Assembly: GCF_001999985.1 (NCBI RefSeq)
Contig: NZ_CP019645.1
Location: 1,364,001 to 1,428,000, forward strand
Direction: 5' to 3'
Source: Helicobacter bilis
GTDB lineage: Bacteria; Campylobacterota; Campylobacteria; Campylobacterales; Helicobacteraceae
Length of the DNA stretch: 64,000 nucleotides
This document shows, in pieces, positions 53,261 to 64,000 of this stretch; position 1 is the first letter of the stretch, and every line of letters begins with the position of its first letter. Below the pieces are notes generated by a model. That model was given only the letters and a program-made list of their open reading frames with translations, ran no database searches and was not told the origin of the DNA. The position numbers and the translations under genes were made by a program.

Positions 53261-53659
53261 ATGCCCAAAACGCTAGAGCCTATGTTGGCACACCCATATT
53301 TTGGTGCATTTGTTATGTTTGTTTTAACGCTTGTTGCCTTTCAAGCAACTTTCTTTTTACAAAGACTTGTATCAAGAAAGATAGCACAGAAAAAGGGCGA
53401 TAAACTTAAGATGGCACCCTATGAATGCGGACCTATCCCTATCAAGCAAGAAAATAAAATCTCACACCAATTCTACATTATAGCTGTGCTATTTGTGCTT
53501 TTTGATGTAGAGGTTATTTTTATGATTCCATGGGCACTAGAGTATCGTAATCTTGGAATGTTAGGATTTATTGAAATGCTTGCATTTATTGGCTTACTTG
53601 TAGTTGGCTTTTTGTTTGCGTGGAAAAGGGGGGCATTGTCATGGCAACACATGAGGTAG
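53261..53659 (+). CDS. nuoA: NADH-quinone oxidoreductase subunit A
   Basis: A 132-residue inner-membrane subunit of complex I with three predicted helices. The loop [20 protein letters not shown] holds the conserved ECG, followed by [17 protein letters not shown], the signature of NuoA/ND3. GAAGGAAG precedes the ATG. It is first of the nuo operon; its end overlaps nuoB by 19 bases. Confidence 0.97.
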
Positions 53660-54150
53660 GTGAGCTTAGCCCAAGGGGTATGCCTGTCGCACTTGGAAGT
53701 GTGGATAAGATTCTAAACTGGGGGCGAAGTAACTCTCTTTGGCCCCTTACTTATGGGCTTGCATGTTGTGCTATTGAGATGATGGCAACGGGTGGTTCAA
53801 GGTTTGATTTCGATAGATTTGGAATCATTTTTCGTGCTAGTCCTAGACAAAGCGATGTTATGATTATCGCAGGGACATTGACGAAGAAGCACGCAGAATT
53901 TACAAGAAGATTGTATGATCAAATGCCTGAACCAAAATGGGTTGTGTCTATGGGAAGCTGTGCAAATACTGGAGGCATGTTTAATACCTATGCTACAGTG
54001 CAGGGTGTAGATAGGATTATCCCTGTAGATATTTATCTGCCCGGTTGTGCGCCTAGACCAGAGACGCTGCAGTATGCTATGATGGTATTGCAGCAAAAGA
54101 TTCGCTCTGAAAAGGCGATTAAAACTGAAGCACCAAAAAGGCTTGTGTAG
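53641..54150 (+). CDS. nuoB: NADH-quinone oxidoreductase subunit B
   Basis: A 169-residue peripheral-arm subunit that carries cluster N2, the last Fe-S centre before quinone. The four ligands are visible: adjacent Cys in [12 protein letters not shown], a Cys in [12 protein letters not shown] and one in [12 protein letters not shown]. The ATG at 53641 follows AAAGGGGGG and lies inside nuoA; an in-frame start upstream is less likely. An unusual gap of 310 bases separates it from nuoC. Confidence 0.97.
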
Positions 54151-54460: not shown

Positions 54461-55267
54461 ATGATACGCAGAAAAGCACAAAAACAAGATGTCCAAAAAA
54501 AAGTCTATCATACAGATAGATTCTATCAGCCTATAACAACCCCAAAAATAGAGACTATAAACTCAAACTATAAAGAAGTTTTAGAATCCCTGCAAAAAGA
54601 AGTTAATATATTAAATAGCTATGTAGAGATTAATCAAGCAGTATTTTATGTCCCAAAAGAAGATGTTTGCAGGGCGTTAGAGATTCTAAAATCTATGAAA
54701 TACAACATTATGTCTGAAATGAGTGCGATTGATAATCTTGCAAGTGATGGGACATTTGAGCTTTTCTATCAGCTTACTTCACATGAAAAATCACATAAAG
54801 ACCGCCGTAGATTGCGTGTAAAATGTGCTTTAAAAGAAAATGAGGCTATGCCTAGTGTGAGTGGCATTTTTGCTTGTGCGAATTGGAGTGAGAGAGAATG
54901 CTATGATATGTTTGGTATAAAGTTTCTCAATCACCCATTTTTGAAGCGAATCCTTATGCCTATTGATTGGGTAGGCAATCCTTTATTAAAAACCTATCCA
55001 TTAAAAGGCGATGAGTTTGCCTCATGGTATGAAGTCGATAAGATTTTTGGCAGAGAATATAGAGATGTTGTAGGACCAGAGCAAAGAGATAGTGCAAGGA
55101 TTGATAGAAATGATAGTATCAATTTCTCACGCATAGGGAAAGAAGTGCCAAAGGGTGCAACGCCAAGCGATATGGTGCATGAGATAAGCTATCAAGAGAC
55201 AAATAAACCACCGATTCTACAAAAGTTTCCAAACACACAACCAAAAGTGCGTGAAAAACGAGTATAG
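54461..55267 (+). CDS. nuoC: NADH-quinone oxidoreductase subunit C
   Basis: A 268-residue peripheral-arm subunit. The 30-kDa signature is visible in [21 protein letters not shown], followed by the conserved [20 protein letters not shown] and YPLKGDEF. A basic N-terminal stretch of about 30 residues and a long C-terminal tail are extra relative to E. coli-type NuoC domains. It is separate from nuoD, eight bases apart, as in Helicobacter and not fused as in E. coli. Confidence 0.96.
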
Positions 55268-55275
55268 GGGTAGAT

Positions 55276-56505
55276 ATGGCACAATATTTTAATAAGCTGC
55301 AAACGCAATTTGAAAATGTTTTATTTGAGCAAGATGAAGGCAAAATGGTTGTAAATCTAGGTCCGCAGCATCCAAGCGCACACGGACAATTGCGACTGAT
55401 TCTAGAGCTTGATGGAGAGATGGTAAAAAAGGCATATCCTGATATTGGTTACTTGCACAGAGGGATTGAAAAGTTGGCAGAAAATATGATTTATAATGAA
55501 TTTATGCCAACAACAGATAGAATGGATTATACCGCTGCAAGTAGTAATAATCACGCCTTTGCCTATGGTGTAGAAACGCTTTTAGGGGTAGAAGTGCCAA
55601 GAAGGGCTAAGGTTATACGCACAATCATTTTAGAGCTTAATCGCATTATCTCACATTTTCTTTTTATGGCTACACATGCCCTTGATGTTGGAGCTATGAG
55701 TGTATTTTTATATGCATTTAAGGGTAGGGAATATGTGCTTGACATGATAGAGGATTATTGTGGGGCAAGATTAACGCATAATTCTATCCGCATAGGTGGT
55801 GTGCCACTTGATATTCCGCATAATTGGTTTGAAAATATAGAATCTTGTTTAAATGAAGTTACAAAGACAATTAATCTCATAAAAGGACTTTTAGATAAGA
55901 ATAGAATCTGGCGTATGAGATTAGAAGGTGTAGGTAAAATCAGCAAAGAGATGGCACAAGATTATGGGCTTAGCGGTGTTATGCTTCGTGGGTCTGGTAT
56001 CCCTTATGATATTAGAAAAGAAGAGCCTTATGAAATCTATGATGAGTTAGACTTTAGCGTGCCTTTTACAGATAGTGGCGATTGCTATGGTCGCTATGTG
56101 CTTTACACTGAAGAAGTGTTTCAATCATGCTCCATTATTAGACAAGCAATGAAACTCTATAAAGATACAGATACAGCTCTTATGGCACACGCACCACAAT
56201 ATATCTCCGCACCAAAAGAAGATGTGATGACACAAAACTATTCTTTAATGCAGCATTTTGTGCTTGTAACACAAGGTATGAGACCGCCAAAGGGTGAAGT
56301 CTATGCTCCCACTGAATCTCCAAAAGGTGAATTAGGCTTTTTTATAAGCTCTTTAGGGAATCCATATCCACACAGAGTAAAGATAAAAGCCCCAAGCTTT
56401 TATCATTTACAAGTATTAGAGGCAATGCTGCCCGGACATTACTTAGCCGATGTTATTACGATTATAGGTAATAGTAATATTATCTTAGGCGAAATAGATA
56501 GATAG
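55276..56505 (+). CDS. nuoD: NADH-quinone oxidoreductase subunit D
   Basis: A 409-residue 49-kDa subunit that lines the quinone site with NuoB. Typical sequences are [20 protein letters not shown], the [15 protein letters not shown] segment, the [18 protein letters not shown] region and [20 protein letters not shown] followed by GEIDR at the very end. The length is standard. AGGGGTAGAT precedes the ATG. It is followed 20 bases later by the NuoE-like gene. Confidence 0.97.
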
Positions 56506-56772: not shown

Positions 56773-59502
56773 ATGGTAAAGAAAACAAATCCAAACATTC
56801 CATATAGCTTAAGTGATTTTCCTAAAGTTTTACCGCAAGTAAAGTTTTTTACAAAAGAGCCTATTGAAACCACACAAAAAGAGATAAAAGCATTTGTCGG
56901 TTGGGATGGGATAGTAATCTTTGATCCTTCCCTAGATATTTTACAAACATTAAAAATCTATGCAAAGCAATATCAAAACTACGCACAATCATGTGGGAGA
57001 TGCACGCCGGGTAAATATGGTGGCAAAGTGCTTTATGAGCTTTTAGAAAAGCTACAAAATTATAACTATGCAAGTGATTGTGAGGCATTAAAGGATATTG
57101 AGAAGCTAAAGGAAGTATGTGAGTTAATGAAAGCTACTTCAAAATGTGAAGTCGGTAAAACCACACCAAATCCTATTCTTCAAATTTTAAAAGAAAAACC
57201 AGAAGTCTTTGCAAAAGCCCTGCCTTTATCAAAACAAAAAGATTCTAATTTAGAGAATAGCACGCAAAGTCTAAATGACTTAACAGAGCAATTAAAACAA
57301 AGCACAAAGAAACTGCAAGATGCAAGAGATTTTGTAGATAAAGTGCAGCAAAGCATTGAAAGCGGAGTTACCCCAGCTTCCTTAGTCCATGATGTTATGC
57401 AAAGAATGGAGAATATAAAGGCTACACAAGAAAAAGAGGATTTAGAAAGCATAATGATAGAATCTGCTAGAAAGATAGCAAGAGAGAATGTAGATTCTAG
57501 CCTAAATGAGCGGACACAAGGTGCAGGGGTGCAAAATGATAGGAATGCAGATTCTAAAAATTGTCATATTGAGGCGTGTGCTGAAATATCTAGTATAGAA
57601 TCTAACAAAGATGTTTCGCCTTTTTCAACGGCTCAACATGACAAGATTTCAGATTCTAAAGAATCCAAAATGCCCACTGCGGAAGTATCTTTAGACAATT
57701 TTGCGGGTTATCAAGGTGGAGGCGAAGGGAGTGTATTAAACATACATGACCGAGCCGACACCATAGATTCCCGCAAAAGTGGCAAAAATACAACGCAAGA
57801 GATAAAAACTCACACGCTTATGCCTGTAGCTTATAATATTACGAGAGACAATTCCGCTGAAAATACTTTTGAATCTTTAGAGCGATATAAAAGTGCAATC
57901 ACAACAAGGATAAATAACCTAGAATATATATCAAAAATCACCGCACCATGCACTGATGAGTGTCCATCTCGTGTGGATATTCCAGCCTATATTGAGGGTG
58001 TGAAAGATATGCGATATCTTGATTCACTAAGTAGCACAAGGGGGAGTATGCCACTAGCTCAAGTGTGTGGTCGTGTATGTCCGCATCCTTGTGAGAATGC
58101 GTGTCGCAGGGCTATTTTAGATGATCCTATTAGCATTATGGAGTTAAAGCGAATTGGTGCAAACATTGAGTTTAGCAAGAAGCAGACAAGCAAATGGCAG
58201 GGCTATTCTCACCCAAATAATATAGAGACAAGAGAGTTTGCTAATAAGTCAGTAGGTGTTATTGGAGCAGGTCCAGCAGGGCTTAGCAGTGCGTATTACA
58301 TGGCATTAAGGGGGATTAAGGTCGATGTGTATGAAGCCTTGCCTGTTTTAGGTGGTGAGGTAGCTGTGGGTGTGCCAAACTATCGTATGCCAATTAATGA
58401 ATATAATCATGATATAGAATCTTTAAAGTCTTTAGGTGTTATTTTTCATACAAATTTCTTAGTAGATTCTAAAAATATTAGTGAATTAGAATCTAAGCAT
58501 AATGCTTTAGTGATAGCAGTAGGCACAAGGGCTAGTAAAAAGCTTGGCTGTAAGAATGAAAATACAACTCTAAGTGGCTACTTACCAGCGATTAAATTTA
58601 TGGATTCTGTAAATCTAGCACAAAAATTTAATATCGGCGAGTTACCAAACTTAGCGGGTAAAAAAGTGGTATGCGTTGGTGGTGGTTTCACTTCTATGGA
58701 TGTTGTGAGATGTTGCGTGCGGCTTGGGGCTTCTAGTGTGATTATGCTTTATCGCAGAGATGAGGCAACTATCATTAAAAACACTTCAAAAGAAGAGTAT
58801 CATGAGGCATGTGAAGAGGGCGTTGTATTCCAGTTTTTAAGTGCAGTAGATGAGATAATAGAAGAAGATTCTAGAATCAAAGCCTTGAAAATAAATCGCT
58901 ATGAGTTAATAAAAAGTGATACAAGTCCAAAGGGCGAGTTAAAACTCATTGAAGATGGCGGGGTTATGCTAGAGTGTGATATTTTAATCCCAGCGGTTAG
59001 TCAAGAGATGGATTTCCCTTTAGATTCTAGCTTTGGTGTGGAGATAAGTAAATGGAAAACAATTGCTGTTGATGATGCAAGTTTTTCAACAACAAAAAAG
59101 GGGATCTTTGCCGCAGGAGATTGCGTAAGCGGTCCCTTAACGATTGTAAATGCAGTAGGGCAGGGCAGGAGAGTAGCAAGCGTTGTAGCTAATTTCCTAC
59201 AAACAGGCGAGGTAGCGATTAATGATGATGAGAGAATGGAGGATTTATTAAAGCAAATTGGTGTATTTGATAAGAATAGAGAGATTAAGGGCTTTTTATC
59301 AGGCAATACGCGGGCAGTAAGTGATAAATTGCAGCCAGAATATAGGGCAGGTAATTTTGAGGAAGTTAATCTAGGTTTTGATAATGAAATGGCAATAGCT
59401 GAGGCACAACGATGTATGCGGTGCTATTATATTAGCATGTGTGTTGTAGGCTGTGATACAGATTCTAAAGACAAAGAAGCTTTGCAAAAGGAGACAACAT
59501 GA
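56773..59502 (+). CDS. NuoF remnant fused to GltD-like FAD/NAD(P)H oxidoreductase
   Basis: A 909-residue fusion. Residues 1-140 resemble the end of NuoF: SCGRCTPGKYGGKVLYELLE and KCEVGKTTPN stand for the N3 cluster site, but one of the usual Cys (CTPC) is Gly. Residues about 150-345 are a low-complexity insert with two repeat elements. From about 370 on it is GltD-like: CTDECPSRVDIPAYI and QVCGRVCPHPCENACRR (Fe-S ligands), GVIGAGPAGLSSAYYMA (FAD), GGGFTSMDVVRC with MLYRRDE (NADPH-type site) and FAAGDCVSGPLTIVNAVGQG. This suggests NADPH or a related donor feeds the complex. The FMN/NADH-binding front of true NuoF is missing. The end overlaps nuoG by four bases. Confidence 0.85.
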   Translation: MVKKTNPNIPYSLSDFPKVLPQVKFFTKEPIETTQKEIKAFVGWDGIVIFDPSLDILQTLKIYAKQYQNYAQSCGRCTPGKYGGKVLYELLEKLQNYNYASDCEALKDIEKLKEVCELMKATSKCEVGKTTPNPILQILKEKPEVFAKALPLSKQKDSNLENSTQSLNDLTEQLKQSTKKLQDARDFVDKVQQSIESGVTPASLVHDVMQRMENIKATQEKEDLESIMIESARKIARENVDSSLNERTQGAGVQNDRNADSKNCHIEACAEISSIESNKDVSPFSTAQHDKISDSKESKMPTAEVSLDNFAGYQGGGEGSVLNIHDRADTIDSRKSGKNTTQEIKTHTLMPVAYNITRDNSAENTFESLERYKSAITTRINNLEYISKITAPCTDECPSRVDIPAYIEGVKDMRYLDSLSSTRGSMPLAQVCGRVCPHPCENACRRAILDDPISIMELKRIGANIEFSKKQTSKWQGYSHPNNIETREFANKSVGVIGAGPAGLSSAYYMALRGIKVDVYEALPVLGGEVAVGVPNYRMPINEYNHDIESLKSLGVIFHTNFLVDSKNISELESKHNALVIAVGTRASKKLGCKNENTTLSGYLPAIKFMDSVNLAQKFNIGELPNLAGKKVVCVGGGFTSMDVVRCCVRLGASSVIMLYRRDEATIIKNTSKEEYHEACEEGVVFQFLSAVDEIIEEDSRIKALKINRYELIKSDTSPKGELKLIEDGGVMLECDILIPAVSQEMDFPLDSSFGVEISKWKTIAVDDASFSTTKKGIFAAGDCVSGPLTIVNAVGQGRRVASVVANFLQTGEVAINDDERMEDLLKQIGVFDKNREIKGFLSGNTRAVSDKLQPEYRAGNFEEVNLGFDNEMAIAEAQRCMRCYYISMCVVGCDTDSKDKEALQKETT
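57561..57644 (+). repeat. TTGTCAT...ATGACAA element in the NuoF-GltD gene
   Basis: 84 bases (28 codons) with inverted ends TTGTCAT and ATGACAA, in frame inside the linker of the fusion gene. The internal TTTCGCC and GGCTCAAC blocks match the intergenic half copies at 4931-4957 and about 32367-32390. Confidence 0.55.
57664..57802 (+). repeat. In-frame repeat element in the NuoF-GltD linker
   Basis: Starts with CCAAAATGCCCACTGCGGAA, has a TTTAGACAATTT block, GGGAGTGTATTAAACATACA and the closing AAAAATACAACGCAAGAG. It matches 20340-20480 in the trpCF gene block for block and in the same frame (SKMPTAEVSLDNF, GSVLNIHDRA, KNTTQ). Confidence 0.65.
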
Positions 59503-61925
59503 CACAAGCAGGTATTGCTATAAAGCATGAAGATTCTAAGACAGAGCGTATCCAAGTATTTATCGATGATAAGGAATGCTATGCAAAAAAAGGGGAGAGT
59601 TTATTAAGCGTAGCAAGGAATAATGGTATAAATATCCCTACACTTTGTGATCTTAAAAAGCTTACGCCAACGGGTGCATGTCGCATGTGTGTGGTAGAAG
59701 AGGATAATGGCAATATTATTGCAAGTTGTAAAAGCTATGTAGCAAAGCCACTTAGAATCTACACACAAACTGAGAAGTTGCAAAAATATCGCAATCAAAT
59801 TATGAGCTTTTTATGTATCAATCACCCTTTAGAATGCGGTGTATGTGATAAAAGCGGTGAGTGTGAATTGCAGGATAAAGTGTTAGAATCTAAGGTTGCA
59901 ATCCAGCCCTTTTTTGCCATTCAAAAGCAAAATGACTATGTGCATTTTCACAATAAAGTCTATAATGAAGCCTTATGTATCATGTGTGAGAGATGTGCTA
60001 GAACTTGTAATGAATATGTGGGAAATAGTGTATTATCTGTGCTTGCAGGGGGCTTTCACTCAAAGATTGGTGTAGATTTTAATGCTTATTGTGAAGATTG
60101 TGATGAATGCGTGAGTGTGTGTCCAACGGGTGCTATGTTTTCTACGCGTTTTACTTATACAAGTAATGCTTGGGAGTTAGAGAAAGCTAAATCACATTGT
60201 ATCCATTGTAGTTTGCACTGCCCTTTGCATTATGAAGTAAAGCATAATATAGATTCTAAAAAAGAAGTCTATCGCATTAAAAATGAAGCCCATATCATGC
60301 AGTTATGCCATGCTGGAAGACATAACTTTTTACGCAAAAACTTACAAGATTCTACAACTAATAATTTTAGTTTAAATGAGACTTTATCAAAAGCAAATGC
60401 CCTGCGTCTTGGGACAAATCTAACAAATGAAGAAATCTATATCGCAAATCTTTTAGCACAAAAAGCAAATAAAAAGCTGTATTGCAACGAGGCTTTATCC
60501 TATAAAGAATTTAATGCGATTTGTAATACATACACAGAAGTAGAGAATCTAAACGCAATAAAAGACTTACAACATAATGGCGTTGTGATTATCTTAGGCA
60601 GTTATCTCTATGATGAAATGCCCGTATTGCGTAGTGATCTCTCAAAGCTATCACTCAAAAAAGGGGTGAAAAATATTTGGATAAGCCCTATTGCTGAAGA
60701 GAGATTTCAAAGTGATTTAGCAATTACTTATGAAGTATCAAGTGAGCTTGCTATTAGCACGCTACTTTTAAGCCTATTTACAAAGCAAATACAAGCTACA
60801 ATCAGCACTTTAGAAACTAGCCAAGCCCTAAATAATAGCTCACAGAATCTAGCCTTATTAAAAAATACTCTAAAATGGCTACAAGCACAAGATTTAGCCT
60901 ATCTTATGGCAGAAAGCAATGTAAGTGAAGCTGAATTAGCCCTTTTAGATTCTATGTGTAATTATAATAAGCCTTTAGAATCTCATATCACTCAAACTTC
61001 TCACATAAAGATTCTAATAGGACAAGATTTCTATCTCTCTAAGCATTATAAGCTTATCGCACAGATTTTATCTGCTATTTCTCTTTGCAATAAGAATTGC
61101 TCTATTATCCCGCTTTGCTATGATAATATCCATGCGATTGGTTTGTTATGCGATTTAGCGTATGATGATGGTAGTTATAATAATATCTTAGGTATCCGCT
61201 CTAATGCAGAGTTTAGCATTGCACCCATGCCCTTCAAACTAGATTCTAAAATAGAATCTAAGAATACACACAAACATGTATCCATTATGCCAATGCAGTT
61301 TATGGAAGGAAGTGTAATTGATATGTATGGGAATCTAGTAAAGCTTTATCCAAGCTTTAGAGATGATGATATTTTTAGTAGCACGAAAGATTCTATACAA
61401 AGAGATTTGCTTGATATAAGTAAGGATTATTTAGGGCTTGATTGTGAATATATGATAGATATTACAAGTGAAGTTCCTTTTTTAAGTGAGTTTTTACAAG
61501 AAAAAAATATTAAAGATTTTGACTCTTTAGAATCTAAAATGCGTTTAGATTCTAAAAGTTTGAAGCTTACTTTAGATAATATAGCTTTGCTTGAATATCC
61601 AGAAATTGTAATGAGTGAGGGCAGTGGTATTTTTATCTATAAAGCGGCTTTAAGTGGCAATTTAAGCTTTTATCGCAATGAATACAGAAGTGAAAATCTA
61701 GTCTATAATAGTAAAGAATTGCATGGAATCTTAAAGGTATCAAAGCAGTTTTGCATTGCTACAAAATTGCAGGATAATGAGATTATCAATCTACAAGTAG
61801 GCGATGTTATCCTTAGTGTGAGAGTTATGCAGACTTCATTTATGAAAGGCATGGTAGCAGTCCTTGCAAGTGATTATGTAATAACTTCTACAAAATATTT
61901 TGATTATAAAACATTAAAGGCATAG
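59499..61925 (+). CDS. nuoG: NADH-quinone oxidoreductase subunit G, paralogue 1
   Basis: An 808-residue Fe-S subunit of complex I. The [2Fe-2S] N-terminal domain has TLCDLKKLTPTGACRMCVVE and SCKS; then HPLECGVCDKSGECELQD (His-Cys3 cluster N5), CIMCERCARTCNEYVG and CEDCDECVSVCPTGAM (two 4Fe-4S), and CIHCSLHCPLHYEV, the site of the extra cluster N7. The rest is a degenerate molybdopterin-oxidoreductase fold. It differs from the H. pylori NuoG more than the next gene does, so it is the likely extra paralogue. Starts inside the end of the NuoF-GltD gene and ends one base before the second nuoG. Confidence 0.88.
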   Translation: MTQAGIAIKHEDSKTERIQVFIDDKECYAKKGESLLSVARNNGINIPTLCDLKKLTPTGACRMCVVEEDNGNIIASCKSYVAKPLRIYTQTEKLQKYRNQIMSFLCINHPLECGVCDKSGECELQDKVLESKVAIQPFFAIQKQNDYVHFHNKVYNEALCIMCERCARTCNEYVGNSVLSVLAGGFHSKIGVDFNAYCEDCDECVSVCPTGAMFSTRFTYTSNAWELEKAKSHCIHCSLHCPLHYEVKHNIDSKKEVYRIKNEAHIMQLCHAGRHNFLRKNLQDSTTNNFSLNETLSKANALRLGTNLTNEEIYIANLLAQKANKKLYCNEALSYKEFNAICNTYTEVENLNAIKDLQHNGVVIILGSYLYDEMPVLRSDLSKLSLKKGVKNIWISPIAEERFQSDLAITYEVSSELAISTLLLSLFTKQIQATISTLETSQALNNSSQNLALLKNTLKWLQAQDLAYLMAESNVSEAELALLDSMCNYNKPLESHITQTSHIKILIGQDFYLSKHYKLIAQILSAISLCNKNCSIIPLCYDNIHAIGLLCDLAYDDGSYNNILGIRSNAEFSIAPMPFKLDSKIESKNTHKHVSIMPMQFMEGSVIDMYGNLVKLYPSFRDDDIFSSTKDSIQRDLLDISKDYLGLDCEYMIDITSEVPFLSEFLQEKNIKDFDSLESKMRLDSKSLKLTLDNIALLEYPEIVMSEGSGIFIYKAALSGNLSFYRNEYRSENLVYNSKELHGILKVSKQFCIATKLQDNEIINLQVGDVILSVRVMQTSFMKGMVAVLASDYVITSTKYFDYKTLKA

Positions 61926-61926
61926 T

Positions 61927-64000
61927 ATGAATATTACGATTGAAGGGCAAGTGCTTCAAGCAAATGATGGGGATACAATCCTTGATGTTGCAAGACGCAA
62001 TAATATACAGATTCCTACCATTTGTTTTTTAAGCGGTTGTAGCCCGACTTTAGCATGTAAAATGTGTATGGTGGAAGTCAATGGTAAAAGGGTGTATAGC
62101 TGTAATGCGAAAGTAAAAGATGGCATGGAAGTTGTAGTCCATAATGAAGAGTTACAAAAAGATAGAAATGAGATTATGACTACCTATTGTGTGAATCACC
62201 CTTTAGAATGTGGCGTGTGTGATAAAAGTGGGGAGTGTGAATTGCAAGATTTCACGCTTTATACAAAGGTTGATACGCAACAATTTGGCTTACAAGAGGC
62301 AGATAAAAAGTCATATAGTTTTGCTCAAAGCTTTTATGACCCAGCATTATGTATCATGTGTGAAAGGTGCGTTACCACTTGCAAGGATAATATTGGGGAA
62401 GCAAACTTGAAAGCAGGTAAAGCAAATCTCTTCACGCCAGATAATTATAAAGATTCTATGGGTAAAGATCCCTATTCTGTATGGGCGAAAAGACAAAAAG
62501 GCTTGATTGAGTTTGTGGGTAAAAATGAATGCAAAGATTGTGGAGAGTGTATCTCTGTATGTCCTGTCGGGGCTATGACTTATAAAGATTTTACCTATAC
62601 AAGTAATGCGTGGGAGTTAGAAAAGATTCATTCTACTTGCACGCATTGTGCGGGTGGTTGTGAGCTTATATATAATGTAAAGCATTTAGATGTAAAGGGT
62701 GATTTACAAAAAGTCTATCGCGTGCAAAATGACTTTTTATATAATCCTATTTGTGGGGCAGGGCGGTTTGCCTTTGATATGGTATCTCTTGGATCTCGTA
62801 ATACAACGGCATTGCACCAAGCATTCCAAAGGGCAGATTCTATATTTATAGGCAGTGATGTGAGTAATGAAGAAGCTTTTCTTGCCGACCTGATTGCTAA
62901 AAAGCTAGAGATTCCATTAATAAATCATGAAGCCTATTGTTTGCAGCATTTTGAAAATTACTTTTTGCAAGCAAGAAAGCTTTATGCAACACAATTTAGC
63001 ACAGAATCTAAACACAATATCTTTGCTACTTTTGAAGACTTTAAAACAAGCCCTAGCTTTATAGCATTACATACTTATTTTAAACATGACGCACCAATTG
63101 TTCGCTACAAGCTAAACAATAATCTCAAAATGCAGAAAAACTCACAAGTGATAAGCATAACTCTCTTTAAAGATACACTTTTAGAATCTCTTGGCAAAAA
63201 TGTTACACAAATACAAGGTGATAATGCGAATGTTTCACTTATGGGGATACTTGGCTTAGTATTTGCAAATGATTTAATTGATGATTTTGAAGAATGCTTT
63301 CCTAATAGCTTAAGTGCATTTATGAAAAAGGAAGTCCAAAAGGTAGAAGGATTCTATATCCAAAAAGAAGCTGAAGAGACTTTGACACAAGATTCTAAAG
63401 AGAGTTTAGAATCTAAAGACTCTCAAGTTGAAAATCAAGTGGAAGTAAATCAAGCAGAAAATAAGCAAAATGAAAATCAAGCAGAAGAGAAACAAGCAGA
63501 CACAAAAAGCGAAGTTGATAATCTAAGTCCCTATGATATAAACATAATCGCAAACGCATTAAATATCACTGATCTAAGTAGCTTAAAGCTTACTAAAAAA
63601 GATGGAATCTTAATGATCTCACAATATGTTTTTGATGAGTTTTTAGCGCATGATTTTACAAGTAGTGAAGGCTATGGATTGCAATCACATTTTACAGATA
63701 AAAATCCCCCCACAATAGAAAATGCAGTGGCAACAGCGATTATGGAGGGCATTACAGAATCTGTGCGACATGATATTATGGATAATGGCGTAAAACTGCA
63801 GATTCTAGCTCATTTAATCGCCTTTGTATGCAATAGGCTAAATCTTTCCCTGCTTTATATCCCAAAAGGCACAAATACAATTGGCGTAGCAAATCTTTGT
63901 GCTTTAAGCCCAAGTGATAGTATAGAATCTAAATATAGCATAGGTATCCGCACAAATGGAAGCTTCACTCTAGATTCTAATCTCCCTACTATAAAGCCAA
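61927..64000 (+). CDS. nuoG: NADH-quinone oxidoreductase subunit G, paralogue 2 (partial, runs off window)
   Basis: An open frame of 691 codons that continues past the window end. It begins MNITIEGQVLQANDGDTILD and has ICFLSGCSPTLACKMCMVEV with VYSC ([2Fe-2S]), HPLECGVCDKSGECELQD (N5), CIMCERCVTTCKDNIG and CKDCGECISVCPVGAM, CTHCAGGCELIYNV and PICGAGRF. These match the single NuoG of H. pylori closely. A Glu/Gln/Asn-rich low-complexity stretch of about 50 residues lies near 480-530. It starts one base after paralogue 1 stops, so both are translated from the same transcript. Confidence 0.9.
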   Translation, partial: MNITIEGQVLQANDGDTILDVARRNNIQIPTICFLSGCSPTLACKMCMVEVNGKRVYSCNAKVKDGMEVVVHNEELQKDRNEIMTTYCVNHPLECGVCDKSGECELQDFTLYTKVDTQQFGLQEADKKSYSFAQSFYDPALCIMCERCVTTCKDNIGEANLKAGKANLFTPDNYKDSMGKDPYSVWAKRQKGLIEFVGKNECKDCGECISVCPVGAMTYKDFTYTSNAWELEKIHSTCTHCAGGCELIYNVKHLDVKGDLQKVYRVQNDFLYNPICGAGRFAFDMVSLGSRNTTALHQAFQRADSIFIGSDVSNEEAFLADLIAKKLEIPLINHEAYCLQHFENYFLQARKLYATQFSTESKHNIFATFEDFKTSPSFIALHTYFKHDAPIVRYKLNNNLKMQKNSQVISITLFKDTLLESLGKNVTQIQGDNANVSLMGILGLVFANDLIDDFEECFPNSLSAFMKKEVQKVEGFYIQKEAEETLTQDSKESLESKDSQVENQVEVNQAENKQNENQAEEKQADTKSEVDNLSPYDINIIANALNITDLSSLKLTKKDGILMISQYVFDEFLAHDFTSSEGYGLQSHFTDKNPPTIENAVATAIMEGITESVRHDIMDNGVKLQILAHLIAFVCNRLNLSLLYIPKGTNTIGVANLCALSPSDSIESKYSIGIRTNGSFTLDSNLPTIKP

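Follow-up and report, generated by a model that had tools for sequence, protein, structure and literature searches.

The nuo operon of Helicobacter bilis encodes a protein in which a remnant of NuoF, lacking the NADH/FMN domain, is fused in frame to a GltD-type module with intact cofactor motifs. The gene lies among those for the subunits of complex I and occurs together with a full-length NuoG paralogue, NuoG1 (Table 1; coordinates refer to the window, the whole stretch of 64,000 nucleotides that was analysed). We consider it probable that electrons enter a Campylobacterales-type complex I through the fusion, as the subunit that makes this complex an oxidase of NADPH rather than NADH.

The donor of complex I in the Campylobacterota has been under debate, with flavodoxin or ferredoxin usually named on the strength of work in C. 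jejuni, and about half of the sampled genomes of the order carry this conserved NADPH-type input module instead. The question thereby becomes directly testable in tractable non-pathogens. The module may link respiration to NADPH or, in autotrophs of vents, allow NADPH to be made, and it illustrates modular swapping at the input end of complex I. An epsilon-type complex I in which NuoEF is replaced is already known (PMC6682613, PMC4585668, PMC4178425), as is the kind of module concerned (StnC, SfrAB and NsoC, PMC7483475; GltD-like hydrogenase partners, PMC5037454). In the searchable literature, outside which most subscription papers lie, we found no description of a GltD fusion in complex I or of the relation between HP1265 and NuoG1 reported below, and no biochemical, proteomic or structural evidence for a fusion-type complex.

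Table 1. Features of the fusion protein and of the surrounding nuo operon, with window coordinates, strand and basis.
Feature	Position	Strand	Basis or remark
nuoA	53261..53659	+	homologous to NuoA in syntenic loci
nuoB	53620..54150	+	ORF at its longest begins with GTG; the real start may lie downstream
nuoC	54461..55267	+	Pfam Complex1_30kDa, E 4.8e-36
nuoD	55276..56505	+	Pfam Complex1_49kDa, E 8.9e-103
nuoE' (HP1264-type), 75 aa	56526..56753	+	Pfam PF16514, E 2.5e-34; PDB 2lxr, E 9e-24
NuoF'-GltD fusion	56773..59502	+	909 aa; Pfam and alignment of 23 homologues
NuoF C-terminal (N3) domain, aa 36-150	56878..57222	+	NADH_4Fe-4S; matches C-terminal part of NuoF/HydB chains
N3 motif SCGRCTPG, aa 73-80 (C74, C77; Gly80 at place of third Cys)	56989..57012	+	C74, C77, Gly80 invariant, n=23
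C125, remaining N3 ligand	57145..57147	+	invariant, n=23
Variable linker, aa 151-375	57223..57897	+	nearly absent in other genera; two in-frame dispersed repeats
Fer4_20 domain, aa 376-485 (Cys 393, 397, 432, 436, 440, 444; K459 = StnC K170)	57898..58227	+	Pfam, alignment, PMC10482914
FAD and NADP(H) two-dinucleotide-binding domain, aa 486-815	58228..59217	+	Pyr_redox_2; motifs conserved
Y660-R661-R662, NADP(H) phosphate motif	58750..58758	+	invariant, n=23; role from PMC7596348
C-terminal RCMRC (C881, C884)	59410..59424	+	invariant; HMMER aligns segment to N-terminus of 4ylf_B
nuoG1	59499..61925	+	start overlaps fusion stop (ATGA); ligand sets N1b, N5, two Fer4-type clusters, N7
nuoG2	61927..64000	+	continues past window end; NCBIfam PRK08493, 624 bits, over cut-off

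A NuoF stub joined to a GltD-type module

The reading frame of the fusion has no internal stops, and its product matches three Pfam families, namely NADH_4Fe-4S (residues 71-146, E 1.8e-14), Fer4_20, the Fe-S domain of dihydropyrimidine dehydrogenase and GltD (residues 390-468, E 1.5e-21), and Pyr_redox_2 (residues 493-798, E 1.6e-27). The latter two, with their FAD and NADP(H) motifs, place the protein in the GltD/NfnB/StnC superfamily. Complex1_51K, which represents the NADH/FMN domain of NuoF, was absent both from the protein and from the entire genome, a single contig of 2,620,399 bases (2.62 Mb), and the domain is thus really missing. Canonical NuoF, as in E. coli and Thermus, shares the C-terminal N3 domain with the fusion but also has the NADH/FMN domain and the third N3 cysteine, where the fusion has glycine. 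The original prediction, which had described the loss of this domain, a glycine in place of one N3 ligand and the in-frame attachment of a complete GltD-type module with Fe-S motifs, FAD site and YRR, was borne out in all three respects.

Conservation was assessed in 23 fusion sequences from a wide range of families. The N3 cysteines C74, C77 and C125 are invariant while the position of the third N3 ligand is glycine in 23 of 23, so that Gly80 is a character of the family and not a sign of decay. Since this leaves three cysteines at the N3-like site, not the four of canonical NDH-1, the cluster of the NuoF stub may be altered or absent. In the GltD part, eight cysteines (393, 397, 432, 436, 440, 444, 881 and 884), K459 and the YRR at 660-662 are likewise invariant, and the GxGPxGL (FAD) and GGGFTSxD signatures show little or no variation. 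C881 and C884 are predicted, by analogy with NfnB, to complete the distal [4Fe-4S] cluster of the GltD part; the two cysteines with which the Nfn-type chain begins this domain are C-terminal here, as they are in StnC-type proteins and in a homologue from Collinsella.

Among named relatives, Helicobacter 'rappini' and H. bilis show 87-97% identity (best segment). Relative to H. trogontum, codon position 3 changes 5-6 times as often as positions 1 and 2 in both the NuoF and the GltD parts, which argues that both are under selection at the protein level. The linker is fast-evolving in the same comparison and contains no invariant residue in the alignment. An AlphaFold model of the homologue with the shortest linker (L044; 10 sequences in the alignment) reached a pLDDT of 47.5 and a pTM of 0.37, the N3 domain alone being moderately confident, and as the model was this poor neither inter-cluster distances nor a fold search were based on it.

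Two dispersed palindromic DNA repeats lie in frame inside the linker (57549-57659 and 57651-57800). A DNA search placed them at 50 other sites in the genome (69-97% identity), most of which match the first element and some of which fall within other ORFs. The repeats resemble palindromic elements known from genes of Rickettsia.

Among solved structures the best relatives are 9bov_A, NfnA (9n5u), 4ylf and StnC (8oh5). K459 aligns with K170 of StnC, where the Nfn-type chain 4ylf_B has glutamate, and this conserved position of a lysine cluster ligand makes the fusion StnC-like. The lysine at the proximal [4Fe-4S] cluster and the RCxxC behind the dinucleotide domain are both features of the StnC-type subgroup, and exchange of K170 in StnC for Ala or Cys strongly lowered or abolished activity (PMC10482914). 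StnC, from the Sporomusa-type transhydrogenase StnABC (PDB 8oh5; near relative 9bov), likewise has a GltD-like NADPH-FAD domain with two [4Fe-4S] clusters leading to NuoG-type clusters, and shares the lysine, the YRR and the RCxxC with the fusion. However, its GltD domain lies inside a NuoG-like chain and feeds an FMN-containing bifurcating module, whereas here it sits on a NuoF stub, NuoG1 is encoded by a separate gene, no NADH domain of HydB or NuoF was found in the genome, and the proposed acceptor is the rest of complex I. The GGGFTS of the NADP site and the residues after YRR (DEATII) also deviate from the pattern of StnC and Nfn, which counts against the proposed reading.

The domain make-up, FAD site and Fe-S domain of the fusion are found in NfnB/NfnL and GltD too, and NfnB also has YRR. 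Nfn bifurcates and carries a glutamate ligand at its proximal cluster in the position where the fusion has lysine; GltD serves GOGAT. The two-domain architecture itself recurs in Collinsella (L187; 33% identity in the GltD part). There the N3 site has all four cysteines, the third position being Cys in HydB as well, and the partner is a hydrogenase instead of complex I. The Collinsella gene adjoins a group A [FeFe] hydrogenase (L187:6863-10500) in a layout like that of the GltD-linked group A2 in HydDB, where GltD-like partners of group A2 are described and the role of the group is left undetermined (PMC5037454). The Collinsella system is likely an NADPH-linked hydrogenase and an example of GltD-partnered group A2.

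The nuo operon and the nature of HP1265

The operon is of the epsilon type, with a PF16514 NuoE' in place of NuoE and no NADH domain of NuoF. The nuoE' product contains no cysteines and is not the thioredoxin-type NuoE with [2Fe-2S] cluster N1a found in canonical NDH-1. Its H. pylori counterpart HP1264 is reported to bind FMN in vitro (PMC6269979), so that the complex may contain a second flavin. Two complete tandem NuoG paralogues (59499-64000) occupy the same operon, an arrangement conserved together with the fusion across the order, and the ligand sets of NuoG1 for a [2Fe-2S] cluster, N5, two Fer4-type clusters and N7 are kept in 18 of 19 sequences. Among 17 fusion loci drawn from a range of families, 16 have nuoD followed by the order nuoE'-fusion-nuoG1-nuoG2 (with nuoABCD as far as the loci reach); the contig of the 17th ends inside nuoG1.

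Two loci depart from this picture in detail. NuoG1 of genome G310 (L141) is without four Fer4 cysteines that are otherwise invariant and has therefore probably lost one cluster. The second nuoG of genome G120 consists of two overlapping ORFs of 309 and 537 aa (L138:7681-10051), which a frameshift or an error in the sequence could explain.

In an H. pylori-type genome, the gene after that for the NuoE-like protein (P0005) is, from its position, presumably HP1265. The original prediction had taken HP1265 for the front part of NuoF that H. pylori retains, and this must be discarded: P0005 matches the second half of NuoG1 by BLAST (31% over 157 residues), and comparison of profiles by hhalign gave the HP1265 family a probability of 100% against the C-terminal half of NuoG1 (E 5e-48) and 99.1% against NuoG2, versus 0.1% against the fusion. 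HP1265 is thus not a remnant of NuoF but, judged by its sequence, the relic of a NuoG1, reduced to the C-terminal half. Its counterpart in C. jejuni, Cj1574c, has been reported to be functional in complex I (review, PMC4178425), which indicates that NuoG1 belongs to complex I. The flavodoxin-type complex I of Campylobacter and H. pylori (NuoX/NuoY, HP1264/HP1265) has the same nuo genes and NuoE' as the operon described here but neither the fusion nor the Fe-S half of NuoG1.

Electron donor, path and direction

YRR holds the phosphate of NADP in NfnB, and a tested DsrL-2 with YRR is strictly NADP(H)-dependent (PMC7596348). In StnC, which is itself non-bifurcating, electrons pass from NADPH to FAD and through the GltD clusters into NuoG-type clusters (PMC10482914). 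The YRR motif points to NADPH specificity and, together with the precedent of StnC, makes NADPH the most likely donor. Of the donors named in the original prediction, NADPH has accordingly gained support, while nothing here specifically favours entry by ferredoxin or flavodoxin.

As the StnC structure displays this chain, we propose a similar one, whose route and direction are inferred, as are the occupancy of the cofactor sites and the assembly of the protein into complex I. NADPH would reduce the FAD of the StnC-like domain, and electrons would then pass singly through the two [4Fe-4S] clusters of the GltD part, the one nearest to FAD probably being ligated by K459. They would reach NuoG1 either directly, as in StnC, or by way of the three-cysteine N3-like site of the NuoF stub, which may serve to dock the GltD module on the complex. 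NuoG2, NuoI and NuoB would then carry them to menaquinone, with proton pumping.

Given a proton motive force and a reduced quinone pool, such an enzyme could also run backwards and make NADPH, as would suit the autotrophs of the order. That the same module and complex work mainly in this direction, with quinol electrons driven uphill to NADP+ by the proton motive force to supply NADPH for biosynthesis, is an unlikely alternative. The fusion is widespread in Campylobacterales outside the family of host-associated genera, reverse electron flow through a partial complex I was proposed as the source of NAD(P)H when the Nautilia genome was published (PMC2628731), and DsrL-2, which shares YRR, works both ways (PMC7596348). 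However, the organism of the window is a Helicobacter with flavodoxin and presumably organic donors, and direction is not a property that sequence can give.

Somewhat more doubtful is the view that flavodoxin or ferredoxin is the true donor and that the GltD module merely equilibrates it with NADP(H) on the complex. The donor of epsilonproteobacterial complexes with NuoEF replaced is given as ferredoxin or flavodoxin (PMC4585668, PMC6682613, PMC4178425): complex I of C. jejuni is reported to use flavodoxin (reviews, PMC6682613, PMC4178425), and ferredoxin is assigned to the epsilon-type complex of S. multivorans (PMC4585668). The flavodoxin FldA is also encoded in the genome studied here. Yet the evidence from C. 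jejuni concerns a complex with Cj1574c/Cj1575c in place of NuoEF, the assignment in S. multivorans was made by analogy, and in the 23 lineages compared the NADP(H) site has been kept no less strictly than the ligands of the Fe-S clusters. A further reading, in which several entry points (the FAD of GltD, the FMN of NuoE' and the clusters of NuoG1) allow NADPH and reduced flavodoxin or ferredoxin to be confurcated into quinone, or in reverse the electrons of quinol to be split between both, would amount to a proton-coupled bifurcating complex I and appears improbable. NCBIfam and PDB searches gave no firm identity for L133, a candidate for an FqrB-like protein, or for L131, a candidate for an NDH-2-like one, and neither is given weight here.

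It seems improbable, too, that the nuo operon merely houses the genes of a soluble enzyme, an NADPH oxidoreductase of the SfrAB or Stn type made up of the fusion and NuoG1 and distinct from complex I, which would be left with NuoG2 and another donor. Soluble NADPH oxidoreductases are indeed built from pairs or fusions of NuoG-like and GltD-like proteins (SfrAB, NsoC, StnC; PMC7483475), and genomes without the fusion and NuoG1 retain nuoG2 and other nuo genes. SfrAB, the NADPH:Fe(III) oxidoreductase of Geobacter, combines a GltD-like with a NuoG-like protein to oxidise NADPH, as proposed here (compared by description, PMC7483475). SfrAB is soluble, unlike the complex I role that we propose for the fusion. 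We know of no report of a nuo operon with SfrAB. Three points argue against such a separate enzyme: all fusion loci readable there have the fusion and nuoG1 between nuoE' and nuoG2, HP1265/Cj1574c, as the remnant of NuoG1, has been assigned to complex I, and outside that complex a NuoF stub has no obvious use.

Finally, an origin of the GltD part as the small subunit of a glutamate synthase, captured by fusion, can be dismissed: it scores against GltD-type NCBIfam models, but its best matches are PRK12771, PRK12814 and StnC-type chains, all NCBIfam scores lie under the curated cut-offs, the genome contains no GOGAT large subunit (the single Glu_synthase match, L156, reads as IMP dehydrogenase) and no GltD besides the fusion, and genus-mates carry a separate, clearly different GltD with ERS in place of YRR and without the lysine.

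Distribution and ancestry

The fusion was found in 195 of 399 sampled Campylobacterales genomes and in 52 of 88 genera, and is therefore no peculiarity of Helicobacter bilis. A survey within the genus, as the original prediction had suggested, recovered it from 10 of the 12 members in which the NuoE-like gene is retained. In three more genera of the family the sampled members also have it, while the loci read from seven others, the H. pylori-type genus g2 as well as g3, g4, g5, g6, g11 and g12, are without it. Full-length NuoG1 and the fusion co-occur, and at loci lacking the fusion we found only an HP1265-like remnant, or neither that nor NuoG1. This joint retention or loss, the frequency of the fusion in the order and the second complete NuoG in the operon go beyond what had been foreseen.

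On a NuoD tree of 68 rows, the distribution of the fusion requires at least three changes; how many losses there were varies with the placing of the root and with whether the fusion is permitted to be regained. The presence of the fusion both in other families and in nested genera of the Helicobacteraceae fits an ancestral fusion followed by repeated loss. The fusion is thus probably ancestral in Campylobacterales, and the reduced complex I of H. pylori and its relatives appears to have come from the fusion form by loss of parts.

Two members of the window's own genus that lack the fusion, G004 and G007, are also missing NuoG1, with nuoG2 and the NuoE-like gene kept. Their nuo operons are broken up (L164 and L165, with L075 and L076): nuoG2 is without adjoining nuoABCD, and the NuoE-like gene stands alone elsewhere.
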